From positions 124,001 through 188,000 of the forward strand of contig NZ_PVZF01000009.1 in NCBI RefSeq assembly GCF_003002055.1: 64,000 nt of DNA, read 5' to 3'. Positions 4,913 through 14,190 of this stretch are shown piece by piece (the first letter of the stretch is position 1; the number at the start of each line of letters is the position of its first letter). This stretch comes from Kineococcus rhizosphaerae (lineage in GTDB: Bacteria; Actinomycetota; Actinomycetes; Actinomycetales; Kineococcaceae). The position numbers were made by a program, and so were the translations under genes. The notes beneath the pieces are model-generated. The model searched no databases and was not told the origin of the DNA. It was given only the letters and a program-made list of their open reading frames with translations.

Positions 4913-5019
4913 GGGGGACGAACACTGGCGGTGACCGGAGCGGGTGAGGTCGTCGCCTCGATGACGGAGCGCAACCGGTGTGCGACGATGCGCGCACCGC
5001 CGCCGACGGAGGGAGACAC

Positions 5020-5925
5020 ATGTCGACGCCCGAGTCGGCGCCGCGCACCACGAGCACGACGCGAGAGCCCGCCACGCCGGCGCCCTTCGTCGACGTGGTC
5101 GTCCCCGTCAAGGACGACCCGCGGCTGGTGGGGTGCGTGCAGGCCCTGCTGACCCAGGACCACCCGGCCGACCGGTTCCGGGTCATCGTCGCCGACAACG
5201 GCTCCGCCGCGCCGCGCCTGGACCTGGCCGACCTCGACCCGCGCGTCAGCGTCGTCGTCGAGACCCGCCCCGGCTCCTACGCCGCGCGCAACACCGCGGT
5301 CCGCCAGGCCCGCGGCGACGTCCTGGCCTTCACCGACTCCGACACGCTGCCGGACCCCTCGTGGCTGTCCAGCGCCGTGCGGGCGCTGGGCTCGGGGGCC
5401 GACATCGTCGCCGGCCGGGTCAGGGTCTACCCGCGCGACCCCGCCCGTCCCCACCCCGTCGAGGCCTTCGAGGTCGTCAACGCCTTCCGGCAGGACCGCA
5501 CCGTGCCGCGCGGCTTCGCCGTGACCGCCAACGTCGTGGTGCGCCGGGAGGTCTTCGACGCCGTCGGCCCCTTCGCCGACGCGCTGCCCTCGGGCGGGGA
5601 CGCGGAGTGGTGCGGGCGGGCGATCGCCGCCGGGTACCGGCTCACCTACGTCGAGGACGCCGTGGTGGCCCACCCGGCCCGGGAGTCCTACGCCGAGGCG
5701 TGGCGCAAGCTGTGCCGGGTGCAGCTCGGGCGGCAGCTGCGGGTCCGCGGCGGGGAGGACCCGCCCGGCGCCCTGACGCTCAAGGCCTTCGCCCCGCCCC
5801 TGGGGTCGCTGGCGCGCGCGGTGCGGGCCCGGGAGCTGTACGGGGCCCGCGCCCGGGCCGCGTACGTCGTCGGGGCGTTCTACATGCGCTACGGGCGCGC
5901 CGCCGCCGCCGTGAAGTACCGCTGA
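5020..5925 (+). CDS. glycosyltransferase family 2 protein
   Basis: A 301-residue GT-A fold enzyme. VDVVVPVKDDPRLVGCV opens the nucleotide-binding fold, FTDSDTLPDPSWL carries the DXD-like metal/nucleotide motif, and GGDAEWCGRAIAAGYRL plus VVAHPARES resemble the GT2 acceptor-side ED and His motifs. I chose the ATG at 5020 because a strong GGAGGGAG site lies just upstream. An ATG 42 bases earlier is in frame but has no such site. No membrane segments are evident. The gene stands between the rml/PPT genes and the lasso-like locus, and its substrate is unknown. Confidence 0.88.
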   Translation: MSTPESAPRTTSTTREPATPAPFVDVVVPVKDDPRLVGCVQALLTQDHPADRFRVIVADNGSAAPRLDLADLDPRVSVVVETRPGSYAARNTAVRQARGDVLAFTDSDTLPDPSWLSSAVRALGSGADIVAGRVRVYPRDPARPHPVEAFEVVNAFRQDRTVPRGFAVTANVVVRREVFDAVGPFADALPSGGDAEWCGRAIAAGYRLTYVEDAVVAHPARESYAEAWRKLCRVQLGRQLRVRGGEDPPGALTLKAFAPPLGSLARAVRARELYGARARAAYVVGAFYMRYGRAAAAVKYR

Positions 5926-5950
5926 GACCGCCCCGGACCCAGGACGACCC

Positions 5951-7924
5951 GTGAGCACCGCACCCGCCGGCACCGCCGCCGACGCGCACGACGCGCCCCG
6001 CCCCGCCCCGCCGGCCCGCGTCGACGGCCTGAGCATCGCCCGCGAGCGCCGCGCGCGCCGCCGCCGGCTGCGGTCCCTGCCCGCCCTCGTGGTGGAGGCC
6101 CTGCGGCTGTGCTGGAGCGCCCGGCGCCGCGACCTCGTCCTGGTGTTCGGCGTGCAGCTGCTCGGCGCGCTGCTGCTGGGGGTGCAGGTCCTGGTGGGGC
6201 GCGAGGCCCTGACCCGGGTGTTCTCCGGCGGTGCCGGTGGTGCTGGTGCCGGCACCGGCGGTGACCTGCTGCCGCTGGTCGGGGGCCCGCTGCTGGCCCT
6301 GGGGGGTCTGAGCGTCGTGGCGGGGCTGGCCGGTGCGGTCCGCGGTCAGCGCATGCGCCTGCTGTCCGAGGCCGTGCAGCGGGCGGTGTGGCGCCGCGTG
6401 GTGGACACGACCACGACCGTCCCCCTGGACCGCTTCGACGACCCGGAGTTCTACGACCGCCTGCAACGGGTCTCGACCAACGCCGTGTCCCGGCCGGTGG
6501 GGGTGGCCCAGGGACTGGTGTCGATCCTGGGGGGCGCGGTCGGCGCGGTCGGCCTGGTCGTGGCGCTGTGGGCCATCGACCCCCTGCTGCTGCCGCTGCT
6601 CCTGCTCGCCGGGGTCCCGGTGTTCCTGGTCTCGCGCCGCGGGGGGCGGCTGGAGTTCGACTTCGCGGTCGCGCAGTCGGGGCCGTACCGGGTGCGCAGC
6701 TACCTGCGCTCGGCGCTGACCGGGCGGCGCGAGGCCAAGGAGGTCCGCGCCTACGGCCTGGCGGCGCCGCTGGGTGCGCGGTACGAGCGCCTGCTGCAGG
6801 AGTACGAGGACGCGCTGACGCGGCACGTGGGCCGGCGCATGCGGTTGTCCCTGCTCTCGCAGGTCCTGACGGCCGCCAGCGTGGTCGGCACGGTCGCCGT
6901 CCTGCTGTGGCTGGTGGACTCCGGGCGCCTGTCGCTGGCCGACGCCGGGGCGGCCGGGGCGGCCGCCCCGCTGCTGGCCTCGCGGCTGCAGTCGCTGGCC
7001 GGCGGTGTCGGCACCGTGCTGGAGGCCGGCCTGTTCCTGGACGACCTGCGCGGGTTCCTGCGGCTGGGCACCCCGGCCGGACGGGGCGCGCAGGGGCCGG
7101 CGGCGCTCGAGCCGCTCGTCGAGCTCGAGGTGGACGGCGTCGGGTACCGCTACCCGCAGAGCGCGGGACCGGCGCTGAGCGGGGTGTCGCTGCGGGTCCG
7201 CCGGGGCGAGGTGGTGGCGCTGGTGGGCGAGAACGGGTCGGGCAAGACGACCCTGTCCAAGCTGCTCGCCGGGTTGCTGCCCCCGGGCGAGGGGACGATC
7301 CGCTGGAACGGGACGGACGTCGCCGCGCTGGACCCCGCCGCGGTGCGCGAGCACGTCGCGGTCGTGTTCCAGGACTTCGTGCAGTGGCAGTTCTCCGCGC
7401 ACGACAACATCGCGGTGGGACGCCCGGACCGGCCCGACGAGGCGGGCGCGGTGCCGGCCGCGGCGGTCCAGGCGGGGGCGGACGCGCTGCTGCGCAGGCT
7501 CCCGGGGGGGTACCGCACCCTGCTGAGCGCCGAACTGGCCGGCGGGGTGGACCTGTCGCTGGGGCAGTGGCAACGGGTGGCCCTGGCCCGCGCGTTCTAC
7601 CGGGGGGCGGGCCTGGTGATCCTCGACGAGCCGACGGCGGCGCTGGACGCGCGCGCCGAGGCCGAGCTCTTCGCGGGGATCCGCGAGCTGATGAGCGGGC
7701 GGACGGTCGTGCTGGTGTCCCACCGGTTCTCCAGCGTGCGCGAGGCCGACCGCATCGTCGTCCTGCGCGAGGGCCGGGTCGACGACACCGGGACCCACGA
7801 GGAGCTGCTGGCGCGGGGCGGCCTGTACGCCGAGCTGTACACCCTGCAGGCGCAGGCCTACCTCGACGAGGGGACGGCGCGCGCGGGCAGGGCCCCCACC
7901 GGCCGGCACGCGGCCCACCGGTGA
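5951..7924 (+). CDS. ABC transporter with fused permease and ATPase, RiPP exporter candidate
   Basis: A 657-residue half-transporter. The first 370 residues are a hydrophobic ABC membrane domain; the rest is a complete nucleotide-binding domain with Walker A GENGSGKTT (about residue 428), a Q-loop (VVFQDFVQ), the signature degenerate as LSLGQWQ, Walker B VILDEPTAALD and the H-loop VSHRF. Type II lasso loci (paeninodin type) carry such an exporter (D), which would pump out and give immunity to the mature peptide. It lies 25 bases after a GT2 gene and 38 bases before the B1 gene. A role in glycan export is possible but the neighbours favour the peptide. Confidence 0.85.
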   Translation: MSTAPAGTAADAHDAPRPAPPARVDGLSIARERRARRRRLRSLPALVVEALRLCWSARRRDLVLVFGVQLLGALLLGVQVLVGREALTRVFSGGAGGAGAGTGGDLLPLVGGPLLALGGLSVVAGLAGAVRGQRMRLLSEAVQRAVWRRVVDTTTTVPLDRFDDPEFYDRLQRVSTNAVSRPVGVAQGLVSILGGAVGAVGLVVALWAIDPLLLPLLLLAGVPVFLVSRRGGRLEFDFAVAQSGPYRVRSYLRSALTGRREAKEVRAYGLAAPLGARYERLLQEYEDALTRHVGRRMRLSLLSQVLTAASVVGTVAVLLWLVDSGRLSLADAGAAGAAAPLLASRLQSLAGGVGTVLEAGLFLDDLRGFLRLGTPAGRGAQGPAALEPLVELEVDGVGYRYPQSAGPALSGVSLRVRRGEVVALVGENGSGKTTLSKLLAGLLPPGEGTIRWNGTDVAALDPAAVREHVAVVFQDFVQWQFSAHDNIAVGRPDRPDEAGAVPAAAVQAGADALLRRLPGGYRTLLSAELAGGVDLSLGQWQRVALARAFYRGAGLVILDEPTAALDARAEAELFAGIRELMSGRTVVLVSHRFSSVREADRIVVLREGRVDDTGTHEELLARGGLYAELYTLQAQAYLDEGTARAGRAPTGRHAAHR

Positions 7925-7950
7925 GCCGTGTCGCAGCGTGTTCGTGCCCT

Positions 7951-7956
7951 TACGCT
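7951..7956 (+). promoter_or_regulatory. -10 box of a leaderless promoter for the lasso-like B1-B2-C genes
   Basis: TACGCT lies 6 bases before the GTG at 7963, with no ribosome binding site. It suggests the processing genes have their own promoter in addition to read-through from the ABC gene. Confidence 0.45.
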
Positions 7957-7962
7957 GTGCCC

Positions 7963-8232
7963 GTGAACGAGGCGCAGCAGGTCGCGGTGCGGTCCGAGGA
8001 ACTGGCGTGGAACGAGGTCGACGACCAGATCGTGGTCCTCGACACGACCACCTCGACCTACCACGCGGTCTCCGGCGCGGGAGTCGCCCTGTGGCCGCTG
8101 CTCGTGGAGGGCACCACGCGCGCGGACCTGCTGGAGGTCCTGCGGCGCACCTACGACGTCCCCGGGGACCGGGCCGCAGCCGACCTCGACGCCTTCCTCG
8201 ACGCCTGCACGCCGCTGCTGCGGACGGTGTGA
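7963..8232 (+). CDS. PqqD-like RiPP recognition element, lasso B1 protein
   Basis: An 89-residue protein with the size and pattern of PqqD/RRE domains, which bind the leader of a ribosomal peptide precursor and hand it to the processing enzymes. The central IVVLDTTTSTYHAVSGAGVALWPLL matches the family beta strands and first helix, and the C-terminal helices include LDAFLDACTPLL. The GTG start is placed 6 bases behind a TANNNT hexamer. It is followed one base later by the B2 gene. In lasso biosynthesis B1 binds the YxxP leader motif, which both precursors at 10995 and 11165 carry. Confidence 0.85.
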   Translation: MNEAQQVAVRSEELAWNEVDDQIVVLDTTTSTYHAVSGAGVALWPLLVEGTTRADLLEVLRRTYDVPGDRAAADLDAFLDACTPLLRTV

Positions 8233-8233
8233 G

Positions 8234-8650
8234 GTGCGGCCCGCGACCTCCCTGCGCCGTCTGCGGCGGCGGGCGGTGCGCCGCCTGCGCCGCCGCCTGG
8301 GGCTGGTCCGGCACGGCGGGCTGAGCGCGGCCCGCTGGGCGGACCGCTCGCTGCGGGCCGTGCGCCGGGAGCTGCCCACCGACGGTCTGCGCACCCGGGT
8401 CGTCCCGCCCCCGGACCTGCCCGGCACCGGCCTGGAGGCCGTGGAGGCCGTGCTGCGCCGGCGCGGGGCGACGTGCCTGCAGCGCTGCCTCGTCGTGCAG
8501 GCCTGGCTGCTCGCGCACGGGCAGCCGCGCGAGGTCGTCGTCGCGGCGTCGGTGAGCGACGGGTTCGCCGCGCACGCCTGGCTCGACGGCCACGACGAGG
8601 ACGAGAGCGCGACCTACCGCGAGCTCACCCGCGTGCCGGCGCGCGGGTGA
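8234..8650 (+). CDS. lasso peptide biosynthesis B2 protein, leader peptidase
   Basis: A 138-residue transglutaminase-like cysteine protease of the lasso B2 family (PF13471). The catalytic Cys81 (or the nearby Cys85) lies in ATCLQRCLVVQAWLL, His114 in AAHAWLDG, and an Asp follows at 118 or 121, giving the Cys-His-Asp triad. The N-terminal 45 residues are strongly basic. It should remove the leader from the precursor with help from the RRE protein. The GTG begins one base after the B1 stop, and its stop overlaps the start of the cyclase gene by four bases. This is the expected B1-B2-C order for split-B lasso loci. Confidence 0.88.
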   Translation: MRPATSLRRLRRRAVRRLRRRLGLVRHGGLSAARWADRSLRAVRRELPTDGLRTRVVPPPDLPGTGLEAVEAVLRRRGATCLQRCLVVQAWLLAHGQPREVVVAASVSDGFAAHAWLDGHDEDESATYRELTRVPARG

Positions 8651-9846
8651 GCCCGGCCCCGTCCCCGCACGTCCCCCCGTCCCCGCACGTCCCCCCGGAC
8701 CGGCTGGGCCCGCTGGAGACGGTGTGGGGCATGCCGATCGGCGCCCAGCCGGGGGTGCGGCCACTGGCGCCGGACTCGGAGCTGACGCTGCGCGCCGCGC
8801 TGGAGGAGGCCGTGCTCCCCGCGCTGCGGCGGGCCCCGTGCGTCGTGAGCTTCTCCGGCGGCCGGGACTCCTCGACGGTCCTGGCCGTGGCGACCTCGGT
8901 GGCCCGCCGCGAGGGCCTGCCCGACCCGGTCCCCTACACGCACCGCTTCCCGCACGTGCCGGACTCCCACGAGGACGAGTGGGCCGAGCTCGTCGTGCGC
9001 CACCTGGGCCTGCGCGAGTGGCAACGACCGGCCTGGCACGACGAGATGGACGTCCTGGGTCCCTTCGCCCGCACCGTCCTGCGGCGCGACGGCGTGCTGC
9101 CGCCGTTCAACGGCCACCTGCACGAACCCGTCTTCGCCGCCGCGCGCGGGGGGTCGGTGCTGACCGGCATCGGCGGCGACGAGCTGTTCTCGCAGGTCTC
9201 GCGCTACCCGGTGGTGCGGCTGCTGGCCCGGCGCGCACCGCTGAGCCCACGGGCCCTGCCGCGGGCGGCGTTCTCGGCGCTGGCCCCGGCCCCGCTGCGG
9301 GCCCGGCGGGCCGGGCGGCACCTGCCGCTGGACTTCGGGTGGCTGCGCCCGGACACGGCGCGCCGGCTGCGGGCGGCCGTGGCCCGGCACACGGCCTCCG
9401 AACCGCTGCGCTGGGACCGGGCGGCGCGCCGGTGGCTGTGGCCCAGCCGGGTCCTGCACGTGGCCGGGGCCGCCAAGGAACGCATGGCCGCCGCCCACGA
9501 CGTCCACGTCAGCCACCCCTTCTCCCGCCCCGCCACGCTGCGCGCGGCGGCGGTCGCCTTCGGGTGGGCCGGGCCCCGCGGGCGGGCCGGGGAGCTGCTG
9601 CGCCACGTCGGGGACCTGCTGCCGCGCGCGCTGTGCGAGCGCGAGAGCAAGGCCGGCTTCAACGGCGCCTTCTGGACCGCGACGGCCGCGTCCTTCGCGC
9701 AGCGCTGGACCGGGGTGGGCGTCGACGCGGACCTGGTCGACCCGGAGGCGCTGCGCGCGGAGTGGGCCGGCCCGGACCCCGACCTGCACTCGGTCACCCT
9801 GCTGCAGCACGCGTGGCTGGCGCAGGAGGGCCCGGCCGCGCGCTGA
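8647..9846 (+). CDS. asparagine-synthetase-like lasso cyclase (C protein), short form
   Basis: A 399-residue ATP pyrophosphatase-type protein of the asparagine synthase family. The PP-loop SFSGGRDSS is at residues 68-76. GIGGDELFS and a Lys/Glu-rich C-terminal segment (CERESKAGFNG) match lasso C proteins and AsnB. It lacks the roughly 200-residue N-terminal glutaminase domain that many lasso cyclases retain. In lasso pathways this enzyme adenylates an Asp or Glu side chain and closes the isopeptide ring. The GTG overlaps the B2 stop (GTGA). Residues 6-17 contain a short repeat (PSPHVP twice) encoded by a near-perfect DNA duplication. Confidence 0.86.
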   Translation: MSPAPSPHVPPSPHVPPDRLGPLETVWGMPIGAQPGVRPLAPDSELTLRAALEEAVLPALRRAPCVVSFSGGRDSSTVLAVATSVARREGLPDPVPYTHRFPHVPDSHEDEWAELVVRHLGLREWQRPAWHDEMDVLGPFARTVLRRDGVLPPFNGHLHEPVFAAARGGSVLTGIGGDELFSQVSRYPVVRLLARRAPLSPRALPRAAFSALAPAPLRARRAGRHLPLDFGWLRPDTARRLRAAVARHTASEPLRWDRAARRWLWPSRVLHVAGAAKERMAAAHDVHVSHPFSRPATLRAAAVAFGWAGPRGRAGELLRHVGDLLPRALCERESKAGFNGAFWTATAASFAQRWTGVGVDADLVDPEALRAEWAGPDPDLHSVTLLQHAWLAQEGPAAR

Positions 9847-9884
9847 GGTCCCGCGCCGGTTCGCCGCACGGTCGCGGCGCGGGC

Positions 9885-10835
9885 TCAGCCGTCCCGGCGG
9901 ACCGGGGAGCCGCGCTCGCCGAGGGCCAGCAGGTGCCCGGCCAGCAACCGCGCGGCGTCGTCGGCGACCTCCAGGCGCCGGGGCCGCAACAGGCGCACCG
10001 TCGGCAGGCTGAGCAGGCGCAGCGGAGCGCGCTCGTCGGCCGGGGGCAGGCGCAGGGCCAGGGCGTGGGTGAGGGCCGGCCACCGCTGCGGCAGCGGCAC
10101 GTCCTGCACGGCCGGGGCGTCGGCCCAGCCGAGGTGGACCAGGCCCGCCAGCTCCAGGTCCCCCGGGGGCAGCCGGACCGGGACCTCGACCCGCCAGCGC
10201 CGCCGGCGCCCGACGACCCCGATGTCCTGGCCGGCGCCGTAGTGCTCGGCGCTCTCGCGGCGCAGGTCCACGCAGCGCGGCCCCGGCAGCACCCGCAGCC
10301 CGTCGAGCACGAGGACGTCGTCGGCCACGAGGTCCAGCCCGGCGCGCACGAGGGAGTACATGGCCGTGCTCTTGCCCGCGCCGCGGTCCCCCAGCACCGC
10401 CCAGACCCGCCCGCCGACCACGACGGCCCCGGCGTGCAGGGCCACCCGGCCCTGCCACCAGGCGACGGTGGCGGCCGTGGCCGCCAGGTAGGGGTGGACG
10501 ACGGCCGCGTCGTCCGGCGGGGGGCAGGCCGTGAACGTGGTGGTCGCGCCGAGGCGGTCGACCTCCACGTTCCCCTCCCCCATCGGCAGGACGGCCCGGT
10601 CGGGCCCCACGACCGTGCGCACCGGTGGCGGGACGCGCTCGAGCGCCACCCGCCGCACGCTCCACGTCGTCTCCCCGCCGCGCGCGGGGTGCAGCAGCCG
10701 GGCGGCGCCGGCGAGGTCCGGCAGGGCCAGTCCGTAGGCGACCGGGGCGGTGCTCATGGGGGCAAGGGAAGCAGGCCGCTCCTGCGGCCACGGCACCGGC
10801 TCCCGCTCCGGCGCAGCGGGCCGTCCCCCCGGCAC
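9885..10835 (-). CDS. HPr kinase-like protein, lasso peptide kinase candidate
   Basis: A 316-residue protein related to the C-terminal P-loop domain of HPr kinase/phosphorylase. It has Walker A GDRGAGKST at about 149-157, LHAGAVVV before it, and LVADDVLVLDG after it, which fits the Walker B/acidic region of HprK. Such kinases occur in type II lasso clusters (paeninodin, PadeK), where they phosphorylate the C-terminal serine of the precursor. It is convergent with the cyclase gene and divergent from the precursors. The GTG at 10835 has AGGAG 8 bases upstream; an ATG at 10757 is an alternative start without a clear site. Confidence 0.8.
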   Translation of the reverse strand: MPGGRPAAPEREPVPWPQERPASLAPMSTAPVAYGLALPDLAGAARLLHPARGGETTWSVRRVALERVPPPVRTVVGPDRAVLPMGEGNVEVDRLGATTTFTACPPPDDAAVVHPYLAATAATVAWWQGRVALHAGAVVVGGRVWAVLGDRGAGKSTAMYSLVRAGLDLVADDVLVLDGLRVLPGPRCVDLRRESAEHYGAGQDIGVVGRRRRWRVEVPVRLPPGDLELAGLVHLGWADAPAVQDVPLPQRWPALTHALALRLPPADERAPLRLLSLPTVRLLRPRRLEVADDAARLLAGHLLALGERGSPVRRDG

Positions 10836-10994
10836 CCGCCCTGCTCCTACACACCGTCCAGGTGACTTCTACGGACAGTACGCAGAGAGCGTGACAGTGC
10901 AGTAACCTCACGAGCACCGGGCGTGACTCCCGGCCCGATGCACCGCCGCACCGCCGCACCGCCGAACGACGACGCCGACGCCCTGGAGGTCCCC
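10836..10994 (+). promoter_or_regulatory. divergent control region between the kinase and precursor genes
   Basis: This 159-base gap separates the kinase start from the first precursor. It holds TANNNT hexamers in both directions: TAACCT at 10903-10908 on the plus strand and TACTGT (complement of 10875-10880) on the minus strand. No convincing -35 boxes are seen, so exact promoters are uncertain. An in-frame upward extension of the first precursor exists (from 10923) but lacks a ribosome binding site. Confidence 0.3.
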
Positions 10995-11141
10995 GTGGCC
11001 GAGCAGTACTCCGCTCCTCGCCTGACCACGCTCGGCTCGCTGGCCGAGCTGACCCTGCGGAACAAGAAGTTCGGCACCCGCAGCGACGGCGACTTCTTCT
11101 GCGAGGACGACACCGCCACCCCGCTCTACACCGTCTCCTGA
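10995..11141 (+). CDS. lasso-like RiPP precursor A1
   Basis: A 48-residue precursor. The leader has the Y-x-x-P motif (YSAP, residues 5-8) that lasso RREs recognise, then LTTLGSLAELTL, matching the LGS-ELT leader end seen in actinobacterial lasso-type precursors, with Thr20 at the usual -2 position. The core would begin at Arg22: RNKKFGTRSDGDFF, then one Cys and an acidic EDD, ending LYTVS. Its last residue is Ser, the known target of lasso HprK-like kinases. The GTG has GGAGG five bases upstream. The next gene is a paralogous precursor, 23 bases on. The mature structure is not deducible. Confidence 0.85.
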   Translation: MAEQYSAPRLTTLGSLAELTLRNKKFGTRSDGDFFCEDDTATPLYTVS

Positions 11142-11164
11142 CCCGATCCCGAGGAGGAACCCCC

Positions 11165-11326
11165 GTGACCCAGCCCTACGTGGCCCCCACCCTCACGACG
11201 CTCGGCTCGCTGGCCGACCTCACCCTGCAGACCGGCAAGCAGTTCGGCGCCAAGAGCGACGGGGACTTCCTCAACGGCAAGTCCGTCTACACGGTCTCCT
11301 GCGGGTGCGAGACCGGCATCAACTGA
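11165..11326 (+). CDS. lasso-like RiPP precursor A2
   Basis: A 53-residue paralogue of A1. The leader keeps Y-x-x-P (YVAP, residues 5-8) and LTTLGSLADLTL. The core starts QTGKQFGAKSDGDFL and shares K-x-F-G-x-[KR]-SDGDF and YTVS with A1, but then continues with an extra CGCETGIN tail. The GTG follows a strong GAGGAGGAA site. Only small or chemically similar changes separate the cores in the shared block, which argues for selection. Thr20 is at the expected -2 leader position. The first core acid is at about position 11 by that rule, beyond the usual 7-9. Confidence 0.85.
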   Translation: MTQPYVAPTLTTLGSLADLTLQTGKQFGAKSDGDFLNGKSVYTVSCGCETGIN

Positions 11327-11354
11327 GCCCCGCCCTGGACCGCGGCACGCCCGG

Positions 11355-11389
11355 AGGTCCCCGCCGCGCCCACCGCGCGGCGGGGACCT
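11355..11389 (+). terminator. strong hairpin after the precursor genes
   Basis: A perfect 14-base-pair GC-rich stem (11355-11368 with 11376-11389) and a 7-base loop lie 28 bases after the A2 stop. There is no T tract, as is common in actinobacteria. The hairpin's right arm contains the GGGGACC that would be the ribosome binding site of the next gene if it starts at 11392. Confidence 0.6.
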
Positions 11390-11391
11390 TC

Positions 11392-12489
11392 GTGCGCTCG
11401 CTGCTGCGCGGCGAGCAGGCCTCCCCCCGCGGCGTGACCCCCGAGGCGCTGGGCCGCGTCGTGCACCTGCACCGCGTCGGGCCCACCGTCGACCACCTGC
11501 TGCGGACCGCGCCCGACGCCGCCGCCCTGGCCCCGCTGCGGGCCGGCACCCGGCCCGCCCTCGTGGCCCAGAGCGCCCGGCAGCTGCCGGTCCAGCTGGA
11601 CCTGCGCACCGTCGAGACCGCCCTGCGGGGCCTGGCGTGGGCCGTCGTGAAGGGGCCGGCCGTGGCCCGCACCCTGTACGGGCGCACCCCCCGGGAGTTC
11701 CACGACCTCGACGTCGTCGTCTCACCGGCCTCCTTCGGCGAGGCCCTGGGCCGCCTCGAGGCCGCCGGCGCCCGCCCCATGGACCCCGACTGGGCCGGCA
11801 TCCGCGCCGCCCGCGCCGGCGAGATCGCCGTGGCCCTGCCCCACGGCACCTTCCTGGACCTGCACTGGCACCTGGTCAACCGCCCCCACCGGCGCACCCG
11901 CTTCACGCTCGACGTGGACGCCATGCTCGGGCGCGTGCGCAGCGACGTCCTGCTCGGCACCCGCGCACCGCTGTTCGACGCCACCGACCAGCTGCACCAC
12001 CTCGCGCTGCACGCCTGCCTGTCCGGGGCCTGGCGGTTGCTGTGGTCCCACGACCTGCGCCTGGCCGCGGCCGCCTGCGACGACGCCGGCTGGGACGAGC
12101 TGGTCGCGCGCGCCCGCGCCGCCGGCACCGGGCTCGCGGTCGCGCTGGCCCTGGCCCGCGCGCGGCAGGTCCTGGCCGCCCCCGTGCCCCCCGTGGTCCT
12201 GCGGCGGCTGTCCGCGGGCCGGGGCGGGGACCAGTGGCGCGCCGCGGGGACCCTGTGGACCGCCGCGCTGCCCCCCCACCGGCTGGTGTCCGCCCGCCGC
12301 AACGGTGCCGTCGTCTACCAGAGCACCGCCGGCTCGGGGGTCGCGAGCCTGGCCACCCTGGCCGCCGAGACCGCCCGGCGCCTGCGGGTCGGTCCTCCTC
12401 GCCCCCCGGCGCAGGTGGTCCTCCCGCCGGACGACCCCCGCGCCGCGCGCGAGGGGTACCTGGCCGACGTGGCGTCCGGAACCGCCTGA
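11392..12489 (+). CDS. nucleotidyltransferase-family protein of the lasso-like locus
   Basis: A 365-residue member of the uncharacterised nucleotidyltransferase family found in type II lasso clusters (PadeN-like, PF14907). It begins with LLRGEQASP and LHRVGPTVDHLL, has the catalytic-type motif FHDLDVVVSP, then LDLHWHLVN and a helical C-terminus. Family members have been proposed to modify the peptide, but no reaction is firmly established. I place the start at the GTG at 11392, which has GGGGA just upstream. A GTG at 11305 inside the A2 gene is in frame but has no site. It is the last gene of the lasso-like locus. Confidence 0.78.
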   Translation: MRSLLRGEQASPRGVTPEALGRVVHLHRVGPTVDHLLRTAPDAAALAPLRAGTRPALVAQSARQLPVQLDLRTVETALRGLAWAVVKGPAVARTLYGRTPREFHDLDVVVSPASFGEALGRLEAAGARPMDPDWAGIRAARAGEIAVALPHGTFLDLHWHLVNRPHRRTRFTLDVDAMLGRVRSDVLLGTRAPLFDATDQLHHLALHACLSGAWRLLWSHDLRLAAAACDDAGWDELVARARAAGTGLAVALALARARQVLAAPVPPVVLRRLSAGRGGDQWRAAGTLWTAALPPHRLVSARRNGAVVYQSTAGSGVASLATLAAETARRLRVGPPRPPAQVVLPPDDPRAAREGYLADVASGTA

Positions 12490-12522
12490 GGCGTCGTCCG
12501 GACGGAGCAGGACCGCGACTCG

Positions 12523-12552
12523 TTGAGACCTCTCAGCCACGCACGGTAAGTT
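12523..12552 (+). promoter_or_regulatory. candidate promoter for the flippase gene
   Basis: TTGAGA (12523-12528) and TAAGTT (12547-12552) are separated by 18 bases, a plausible housekeeping-sigma arrangement. It lies about 75 bases before the mini-ORF and flippase start. Confidence 0.35.
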
Positions 12553-12625
12553 CACGCCGCCACAGCGCTCACTCTCAGCACCCGCGCGAGTGCGCGCCGC
12601 ACCACCGTCCGAGGAGGCCCCACCG

Positions 12626-12661
12626 ATGTCCACGCACCGAGCAGACGAGGCGCACCGGTGA
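12626..12661 (+). CDS. 11-codon leader mini-ORF coupled to the flippase gene
   Basis: An ATG with an excellent GAGGAGG ribosome binding site opens an 11-codon reading frame (MSTHRADEAHR) whose TGA overlaps the GTG of the flippase by four bases. The flippase GTG itself has no good site. This looks like a translational coupling leader, or the remains of an original start in another frame. Expression as a stable peptide is not implied. Confidence 0.4.
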   Translation: MSTHRADEAHR

Positions 12662-14190
12662 GCCCTGGCCCGTCCCTGAGGTCCGCCACGGCCTCCGGCG
12701 TCGCGTGGAACGCGGTGCAGATGTGGGCCGTGCGCGCCACCACGGCGCTCGCCTTCATCGTCATCAGCCGGCAGCTGCAGCCGTCGGAGTTCGGGCTGGT
12801 GGCCCTCGCGATGTCGGTCATCGCCGTGCTGCAGCTGCTCAGCGACTCCGGGATGGCGAGCTTCCTCATCCGCCAGGAGGAGCTGGACGAGCACAGCCGC
12901 AGCACCGCGTTCTGGACCAGCGTCGTGCTGGCCGTCGTGCTGGCCGGCGTGCTCGTGCTGCTGTCGGTCCCCGTGTCGGGCTGGTTCGGCGAGCCCGACC
13001 TGGCCCCCGTCCTGCAGGTCCTGAGCATCGGCATCGTGCTGACGGGCGTCAACAGCGTGCCCACCGCGCTCCTGCGGCGCGACCTGCGGTTCAAGACGCT
13101 CGCGGTGCGCGGGACGGTCGCCACCCTGGTCGGCTCGGTGGTCGCCATCGTCCTGGCCCTCCTGGGCGCCGGCGTCTGGGCCCTGGTCGCGCAGAACCTC
13201 GTGCGCGGCGTCGTCGGCATCGTCATCCTGTGGACGTCCGTGCAGTGGCTCCCCCGCGTCCTGCCGCGCTGGACGACCGCGCGCTCGATGCTCGCCTTCG
13301 GGTCCAAGCTCCTGACGATCGACCTCATGCGGCAGGTGCAGAACCGCGGTGAGGAGTTCACCCTGGCCGGCGTCGGGGGGTCGACGACGCTGGGGTACTG
13401 GTCGGTGGCCACGCGCCTCATGCGGATCGTGACCGAGACCGGGTCCTCCGTGATCAGCTCGGTGACGCTGTCGACGTTCAGCCGCCTGCAGAACGACCGC
13501 GACCGGCTGCACCGCGCCTACCGGACGAGCATGACCGCGGCCGGGCTGGTGATGTTCCCCGCCCTGCTGTTCATGGCGGCGGCGAGCCCCGACCTCGTGC
13601 CCTTCCTGCTCGGCCAGCAGTGGGCGACCACGGCGACCGTCGCCCAGATCACCGCCCTCACCGCGGCGTTCAGCACCTTCGGCTACTTCGACCGCCAGGT
13701 GTTCATCGCGGTGGACCGGCTGCGGCCGGAGGTGGTGCTCGTCGCCGCCACCGTCGTGGCCCACCTCGCGATCGTGGTGGTCCTGGCCCGCTACGGGCTG
13801 GTGGTGCTCGCGTGGGGCCTGCTGGGCCGCACCCTGCTGACCCTGCCCGCGCGGCAGGTCCTGCTGCACCGGGTGGCCGGCACGCCGTACCGGACCGTCG
13901 TGCTGCCCTGCCGGGTCCTGCTGGCCTCGGCGGTGATGGGTGCGCTCGTCGCCGGGCAGCTGTGGCTGTGCGCGGACCTGGCCCAGTGGCTGCGGCTGCT
14001 GCTGGCCGTCGTGGTCGCCGCGCTCACCTACCCGCTGGCCCTGCTGGTGCTCGCCCGCCCCGCGGTCGAGGAGTTCCGCGGCGACGCGGCGCGCATCCTG
14101 TCGCGGGTGCGGCGCACCCCGCGCCGGCCCCCGGCCGCCGACGCGGTGGACGAGCTGGTCGTCCCGGACGCCCCGGTCAGCCGGCCCTGA
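12658..14190 (+). CDS. Wzx-type polysaccharide flippase
   Basis: A 510-residue integral membrane protein of the MOP superfamily (oligosaccharide flippase/lipopolysaccharide biosynthesis protein). It begins SGVAWNAVQMWAVRATTALAFIVISRQLQPSEFGLVALA, the usual first segment of such flippases, and shows about 12-14 hydrophobic helices with a cytoplasmic C-terminal tail rich in Pro and Arg. It would move lipid-linked repeat units across the membrane. The GTG overlaps the stop of an 11-codon leader frame. It is about 30-40% alike by eye to the second flippase at 61214, sharing motifs such as FLSTAFW/STAFW and SVPTALL. The two genes sit in separate EPS loci. Confidence 0.88.
   Translation: MSPGPSLRSATASGVAWNAVQMWAVRATTALAFIVISRQLQPSEFGLVALAMSVIAVLQLLSDSGMASFLIRQEELDEHSRSTAFWTSVVLAVVLAGVLVLLSVPVSGWFGEPDLAPVLQVLSIGIVLTGVNSVPTALLRRDLRFKTLAVRGTVATLVGSVVAIVLALLGAGVWALVAQNLVRGVVGIVILWTSVQWLPRVLPRWTTARSMLAFGSKLLTIDLMRQVQNRGEEFTLAGVGGSTTLGYWSVATRLMRIVTETGSSVISSVTLSTFSRLQNDRDRLHRAYRTSMTAAGLVMFPALLFMAAASPDLVPFLLGQQWATTATVAQITALTAAFSTFGYFDRQVFIAVDRLRPEVVLVAATVVAHLAIVVVLARYGLVVLAWGLLGRTLLTLPARQVLLHRVAGTPYRTVVLPCRVLLASAVMGALVAGQLWLCADLAQWLRLLLAVVVAALTYPLALLVLARPAVEEFRGDAARILSRVRRTPRRPPAADAVDELVVPDAPVSRP

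Follow-up and report, generated by a model that had tools for sequence, protein, structure and literature searches.

A lasso-family gene cluster of Kineococcus rhizosphaerae with a stand-alone cyclase that may close its ring on a lysine side chain

The window analyzed here, a 64,000-nt stretch of the Kineococcus rhizosphaerae contig NZ_PVZF01000009.1 (positions 124,001-188,000; the coordinates of its genes are window-based), carries a cluster of eight genes for an ATP-binding cassette (ABC) exporter, the proteins B1 and B2, the cyclase C, the divergent kinase K, the precursors A1 and A2, and a PF14907 protein. The locus is a real, conserved lasso-family cluster in which the genes are ordinary and the cores unexpected. 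As read from its sequence, it appears to work like a lasso pathway, but two known lasso features, namely an acid at core position 7-9 and a two-domain cyclase, are missing. With slightly better than even confidence, we propose that, in this lasso-family pathway, the cyclase uses a lysine side chain to close the ring. The wider proposal, to which we give even chances, is that the branch of stand-alone cyclases around C, to date seen in Actinomycetota, converts precursors with lasso leaders to macrolactams between a Lys side chain and an Asp: a subclass of ribosomally synthesized and post-translationally modified peptides (RiPPs) in which the Asn-synthetase fold takes an internal Lys as nucleophile, with a free N-terminal tail and possibly threaded from either end.

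The comparative set comprises 117 loci (the window included; designated by L numbers) collected through C, among which are cut contigs and some genomes present twice. Precursor leaders follow the pattern YxxPxxxxxGxxxxxT, in which Thr (or rarely Ser, as the filter allows) is fixed at position -2, and core numbering starts two residues later. The window precursors show the lasso leader, with YSAPRL and YVAPTL, the Thr, and matches to NF033521 over the cut-off. The A1 leader ends with Thr-Leu and its core, RNKKFGTRSDGDFFCEDDTATPLYTVS, contains Lys3, Lys4 and Asp10, and the A2 core, QTGKQFGAKSDGDFLNGKSVYTVSCGCETGIN, contains Lys4 and Asp11. These are the first Asp residues in A1 and A2, respectively. 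Neither core has an acid at position 7-9, and the usual lasso form that the first-pass annotation had implied for them is not found. Asp/Glu at 7-9 was present in 93 of 122 unique precursors and absent from 29. An acid stands there in 87 of the 96 precursors outside the branch of C and its three basal rows (L056, L100, and L118, excluded from the 96), and is missing from 19 of the 24 branch precursors. Residue 1 is Gly or Ala in 71/96 outside precursors as compared to 2/24 in the branch.

The feature shared by the branch precursors is a Lys followed at a fixed distance by an Asp: the pair K(i)-D(i+6 or 7) occurs in each of the 24 precursors obtained for the branch. In 23 the Lys was found under a limit of 16 residues from the core start; L107a (Lys18-Asp24) was picked up once this limit was widened. 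Examples of branch cores are RNKKFGTRSD (A1), QTGKQFGAKSD (A2), GCNKDYVGSD, TGCYWNKQFGGTD, and MPIIHKNAGSGD. A1-type cores contain two Lys, one per spacing; spacing 7 is used by A2, the second core of L010, L011, L053, and L147, and spacing 6 by the other branch cores. In a shuffle test, 24 of 25 cores had the pair, as compared to a shuffled mean of 5.1 (standard deviation 1.8), and none of 10,000 shuffles was as high; the 25 cores include L107b, which adjoins a second cyclase outside the branch and was dropped from the branch count. Of the 29 cores without an acid at 7-9, 23 had the pair (shuffled mean 5.7, standard deviation 1.9; 0/5000 as high), whereas 11 of the 93 cores with such an acid had it, which is near chance (505/5000 shuffles as high). 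The Lys lies at core position 3-9 (18 in L107a) and the Asp at 9-15 (24 in L107a), and the distance from the leader Thr(-2) to the Lys varies across the branch. Moreover, a spacing of 6 is also found beside the basal cyclases L056, L100, and L118. The rule was noted first; L058 (K4-D10) and L147 (K4-D11), which had yielded no precursor at first and were then searched with a leader hidden Markov model (HMM) blind to the core, were afterwards seen to follow it. L097, at a contig end, yielded no precursor.

We propose that B1 binds the YxxPxL leader, as its family suggests, and that B2 would cut after Thr(-2)-X, as the kept Thr suggests. C would adenylate the Asp 6-7 residues past the internal Lys and join it to the Lys epsilon-amine, so that the predicted bond runs from Lys3 or Lys4 to Asp10 in A1 and from Lys4 to Asp11 in A2. 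The product would be a macrolactam of 26 or 29 atoms. Its N-terminal tail would be short and free, and its C-terminal tail could be threaded or unthreaded; K may phosphorylate a Ser, perhaps the C-terminal one, and the ABC protein would export the product. The computed ring sizes of 26 and 29 atoms (Lys, spacing 6 and 7) are near the 25 and 28 atoms of 8- and 9-residue Asp rings. The prediction of an 18 Da loss stands, although through a ring other than the usual lasso one. With a cut after Thr-Leu, the calculated monoisotopic neutral masses after this loss are 3051.403 (A1) and 3292.513 (A2), or 3131.370 and 3372.479 with phosphate, and a cut ahead of the Lys would give 2781.259 (A1, Lys3) and 3006.385 (A2); a disulfide in A2 would lower its mass by 2.016. 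Paeninodin is phosphorylated at its C terminus, and the frequency of a C-terminal Ser (18/25 branch cores with L107b included vs. 81/96 outside) fits phosphorylation of this kind.

The same spacing could be read differently. The main rival, which we regard as unlikely, is that B2 or another protease cuts directly before the Lys, and that the alpha-amine of this Lys, now residue 1, is joined to the Asp. Spacings of 6 and 7 would then correspond to 7- and 8-residue lasso rings of 22 and 25 atoms, and lasso rings of 7 and 8 residues are known. Lys as the new residue 1 is disfavored because this reading would require neither that the Thr stay nor that the residue be Lys, and would predict constraint on the residues ahead of it. 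However, the Thr keeps its place in the recovered branch leaders even though its position would then not be -2 (the design of the filter accounts for this in part), the residue ahead of the Lys varies (N, G, D, H, P, F, T, Y), and residue 1 of the 96 outside precursors is G, A, Q, E, T, S, V or R and never Lys. It is more doubtful still that the alpha-amine of core residue 1 is joined to Asp10 or Asp11 in a larger N-terminal ring. Cores with Gly1 and a first Asp at position 10 exist outside the branch in L159-L161, and 10-residue rings may exist; in the branch, however, the position of the Asp ranges from 9 to 24 with the Lys spacing remaining 6 or 7, and the Gly/Ala at residue 1 is lost. A ring from the N-terminal amine is disfavored because the distance from cut to Asp (9 to 24) is not near constant.

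The branch cyclases group together in trees. In a quick tree of 117 of the 118 short-cyclase rows (L108_1 was too short), the window cyclase falls in a 21-row branch (SH-aLRT, an approximate likelihood ratio test, 89). In a careful tree of 74/118 rows, chosen to thin near-copies and leaving aside certain rows that were divergent or had no precursor, such as L097, the 20 rows of the branch were held together with support of 97/84. The branch includes Solirubrobacterales and other Thermoleophilia, Acidimicrobiaceae, Modestobacter, Blastococcus, Nocardioides, Rhodococcus, and Jatrophihabitans, and further contains the genus of the window and genome G340. The branch cyclases share the motif P-x-N-x-x-x-H, with N and H in 21/21. 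Additionally, the column of the TG-x-GGD motif that aligns with Glu348 of AsnB (number counted from the alignment) is I, F, V or A in 21/21 branch rows, as compared to Glu in 77, another residue in 18, and a gap in 2 of the other 97 rows. Sixteen further cyclase rows have Glu (14), Gln (one) or Tyr (one, L167) in this column; 15 of them belong to loci with an acid at core 7-9, and about seven are repeats of loci already counted. Searches with a branch profile (E 1e-70) of 396 genomes of the phylum, 66 of the class of G858, 117 of the order of G340, 294 of the family of G340, and 154 of the class of G850, sets that partly overlap, returned no additional branch member beyond the window genome and the already known G340; the cyclases from these searches were assessed from their motif and cores instead of tree placement. 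Loss of the AsnB Glu348 equivalent was rejected as a reliable indicator that Lys is used, because longer lasso-type cyclases vary at this position too.

C itself contains the ATP loop SGGRDSS and the motifs PFNGHLH and TGIGGDE. The lasso cyclase family is usually defined by an extra glutaminase-like N-terminal domain; in C the synthetase domain is present, and Pfam gave no match to a glutaminase (GATase) domain in C or in the whole open frame 8233-9843. The first-pass annotation had taken this lack as a peculiarity of the locus, which it is not: the domain was seen in none of 116 checked loci. The open frame ahead of the ATP loop is shorter than 150 amino acids in 90/117 loci, and the 26 loci with a longer frame and a readable loop, scanned whole by Pfam, gave Asn_synthase and no GATase; the remaining locus, L149, stood outside this check. 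A whole branch of lasso-leader loci is without a glutaminase-like domain. The AlphaFold model of C (mean confidence score pLDDT 92.9) was matched by Foldseek to asparagine, carbapenam, and beta-lactam synthetases (8sue, 1ct9, 1q19, 1mb9) with a TM-score of about 0.4 and an identity of 14-19%. These synthetases resemble C in the fold of the synthetase domain and differ from it by an N-terminal glutaminase or glutaminase-like domain. A further reading, which seems to us rather improbable, is that the Lys-Asp pair is a motif for recognition or for another modification and that C makes another bond or no ring, the pathway ending, e.g., in phosphorylation. The presence of an HprK-like kinase in 112/117 loci speaks for this reading; against it, C retains the ATP-binding loop and the synthetase fold, and the Cys and His of B2 are invariant.

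Several observations weigh against ring closure on lysine. The spacing rule was found post hoc, with two loci tested afterwards, and 7/24 cores come from the genus of the window, which inflates the shuffle result. The first precursor filter required Thr/Ser near -2, so that the kept Thr is partly a matter of construction; the Thr is also present in L058 and L147, which came from the HMM search. L061, L088, L090, L091, and L096 (5/24) also carry an acid at 7-9, and a normal ring is possible in these loci. Pairs of K and D at a spacing of 6-7 are also found beside Glu-keeping cyclases outside the branch, in L055, L074, L104, L108 (counted by eye), L107b, and L159. These outside pairs may be further origins or chance; therefore, either the cyclase features of the branch are unneeded for the pair or some of the pairs are chance. 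The N and H of P-x-N-x-x-x-H likewise occur outside the branch in L059, L072, L100, and L112. Finally, the longer lasso-type cyclases, five genes from six loci, have D (three), Y, and F at the Glu column; L189 and L192 show the same gene, three of the genes score above the family cut-off, and no motif was obtained from L191.

Other loci of the set showed unusual precursors or cyclases. L104 (7708-7881) and L108 (7658-7825) have related cores, ..CKYGHGADN and ..CKYGYGADN, with cysteines and a K-D spacing of 6, and their adjacent cyclases are Glu-type and outside the branch of the window. Cores such as GRQTPGPKKDNSVW and GKVPTGPQRDN, which begin with Gly and have no Asp before position 10, were found in L159 (7179-7322, 5573-5728), L160, and L161 and are candidate 10-residue lasso rings by their sequence. 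Very short, almost tail-less cores were found in L075 (9268-9351), L077 (6160-6243 and 6356-6439), and L087 (5018-5107), for example TIVIVAQGETS with 11 residues and Glu9; a plain macrocycle is likely for these rather than a lasso. In L167, the short cyclase frame (6493-7590), with Tyr in TG-x-GGD, is broken by one TAG stop; no core passed the filter, and a nearby leader-like peptide is without the usual Thr. The clusters L098, L099, L102, L115, L119, and L126 (Amycolatopsis, Prauserella) each have two short cyclases and two precursors, the second cyclase carrying Asn in TG-x-GGD.

All eight genes proposed by the first-pass annotation are present by profile matches. The ABC exporter gene (D; 5951-7924, + strand) matches PF00005 (E 3.1e-30), with 85, 77, and 49% identity in L009, L010, and L011, respectively. 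It is followed on the same strand by the genes for B1 (7963-8232), a PqqD-like RiPP recognition element matching PF05402 (E 1.4e-11; NF033530 below the cut-off), and for the leader protease B2 (8234-8650), which matches PF13471 Transglut_core3 with 27.8 bits (cut-off 26) and the lasso B2 model NF033537 with 22.3 bits, below the cut-off of 33. Together they provide a recognition element and a Cys protease with conserved Cys and His. The gene for C (8647-9846, + strand), a stand-alone Asn-synthetase-type cyclase of 399 amino acids (PF00733, E 1e-16), starts with a GTG that overlaps the B2 stop codon. The gene of the divergent HprK-like kinase K lies on the minus strand (9885-10757); its profile matches are below cut-off (Hpr_kinase_C 17.5 bits, cut-off 33.3; TIGR04352), and Walker A and Asp-Asp are both present. 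A1 (10995-11141, + strand; NF033521 20.8, cut-off 19) and A2 (11165-11326, + strand; 19.4, same cut-off) are 92 and 91% identical in L009, respectively, and both are preceded by a Shine-Dalgarno-like GGAGG. The last gene (NT; 11305-12489, + strand) encodes an uncharacterized nucleotidyltransferase matching PF14907 over the cut-off (E 5.1e-27). Its start is uncertain and is probably located downstream of 11326, as judged from the listed first GTG, which overlaps A2 (11305-11326), and from the homology to L010, which begins at residue 18.

Clusters with the same genes were found in three further genomes of the genus (L009, L010, and L011), of which 11 members, the window genome included, were searched. 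L009 and L010 have two precursors and L011 one; two precursors are frequent among the 117 loci, so that this number, too, loses the special character ascribed to it. Regarding the proposed exopolysaccharide surroundings, a flippase and the glycosyltransferase next to ABC are shared with L009 and L010, but neither is found in L011. C was matched in 8/59 genomes in one search (own included), in 4/12 genomes of the family, and in a profile search (E 1e-25) in 20/394 class and 20/396 order genomes (own included); a scan of named genomes gave 79 loci among the best 80 of 150 relatives, and no relative was detected in the plasmid and viral contigs searched. As far as sequence comparison goes, the short cyclase is shared across a kinase-type lasso family that is widespread and occurs mostly in Actinomycetota. 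HMMs detected K in 112, B2 in 109, B1 in 105, NT in 80, and ABC in 70 of the 117 loci. The Cys, His, and Trp columns of B2 are invariant (104 aligned sequences, gapped rows aside), Walker A GKS and DD of K are nearly invariant (111 aligned sequences, gaps aside), and the D-x-D of NT is invariant (79 aligned rows, gaps aside); these other pathway enzymes look intact. In the branch kinases (window K and K of 17 related loci), two Gly columns are gapped in 18/18, columns that hold Gly in 97-98% of the rows carrying a letter there.

The window gene set presumably resembles a paeninodin-type cluster, with an HprK-like kinase by sub-cutoff profiles, Walker A, and DD, and a nucleotidyltransferase. 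Graspetides are made by ATP-grasp ligases, and no match to such a ligase was obtained among 10 proteins scanned (4978-14190). The macrolactam cyclases of the albusnodin/ikarugamycin family (NF033561) are of Asn-synthetase type as well, and relatives of window C match this model weakly, but it has 561 positions as compared to the 399 amino acids of C; at E 1e-60, 5/98 class genomes match it and the window genome does not. As far as the available text describes them, graspetides are similar in having side-chain macrolactams (PMC13097080). The identification of a lasso-family RiPP locus with kinase and nucleotidyltransferase is borne out by the bsf cluster of Bradymonas, which, in the available part of its description, has the same set of A, B1, B2, C, ABC, kinase, and nucleotidyltransferase and a YxxPxL leader (PMC10368454). 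It differs in its Gly1-Asp8 ring residues and Ile at -2, whereas the window has Thr at -2, no acid at 7-9, and an internal Lys at a fixed distance from Asp; furthermore, BsfK is described there as phosphorylating Ser3, unlike a C-terminal site (PMC10368454). Metanodin, according to the portion of the paper available, similarly departs from the usual ring-forming residue 1, but uses the N-terminal amine of Asn1 with Thr two residues before the ring, whereas the branch Lys lies 2-8 (once 17) residues deeper (PMC12670498). The accessible sections of two papers describe lasso rings as formed from the peptide N-terminal amine (PMC10368454, PMC13352647), and a second isopeptide bond is mentioned for lariocidin (PMC13352647). 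A lasso-family ring closed on lysine was not found in the available parts of the literature searched, subscription papers and preprints being outside its scope.

If ring closure on lysine holds true, a branch of internal-Lys cyclases would free the N-terminus and allow the ring to carry a tail on either side, and it would explain precursors that misfit the ring-position rules. The small cyclases of about 340-400 amino acids would then offer a route to asking how lasso cyclases choose their nucleophile.

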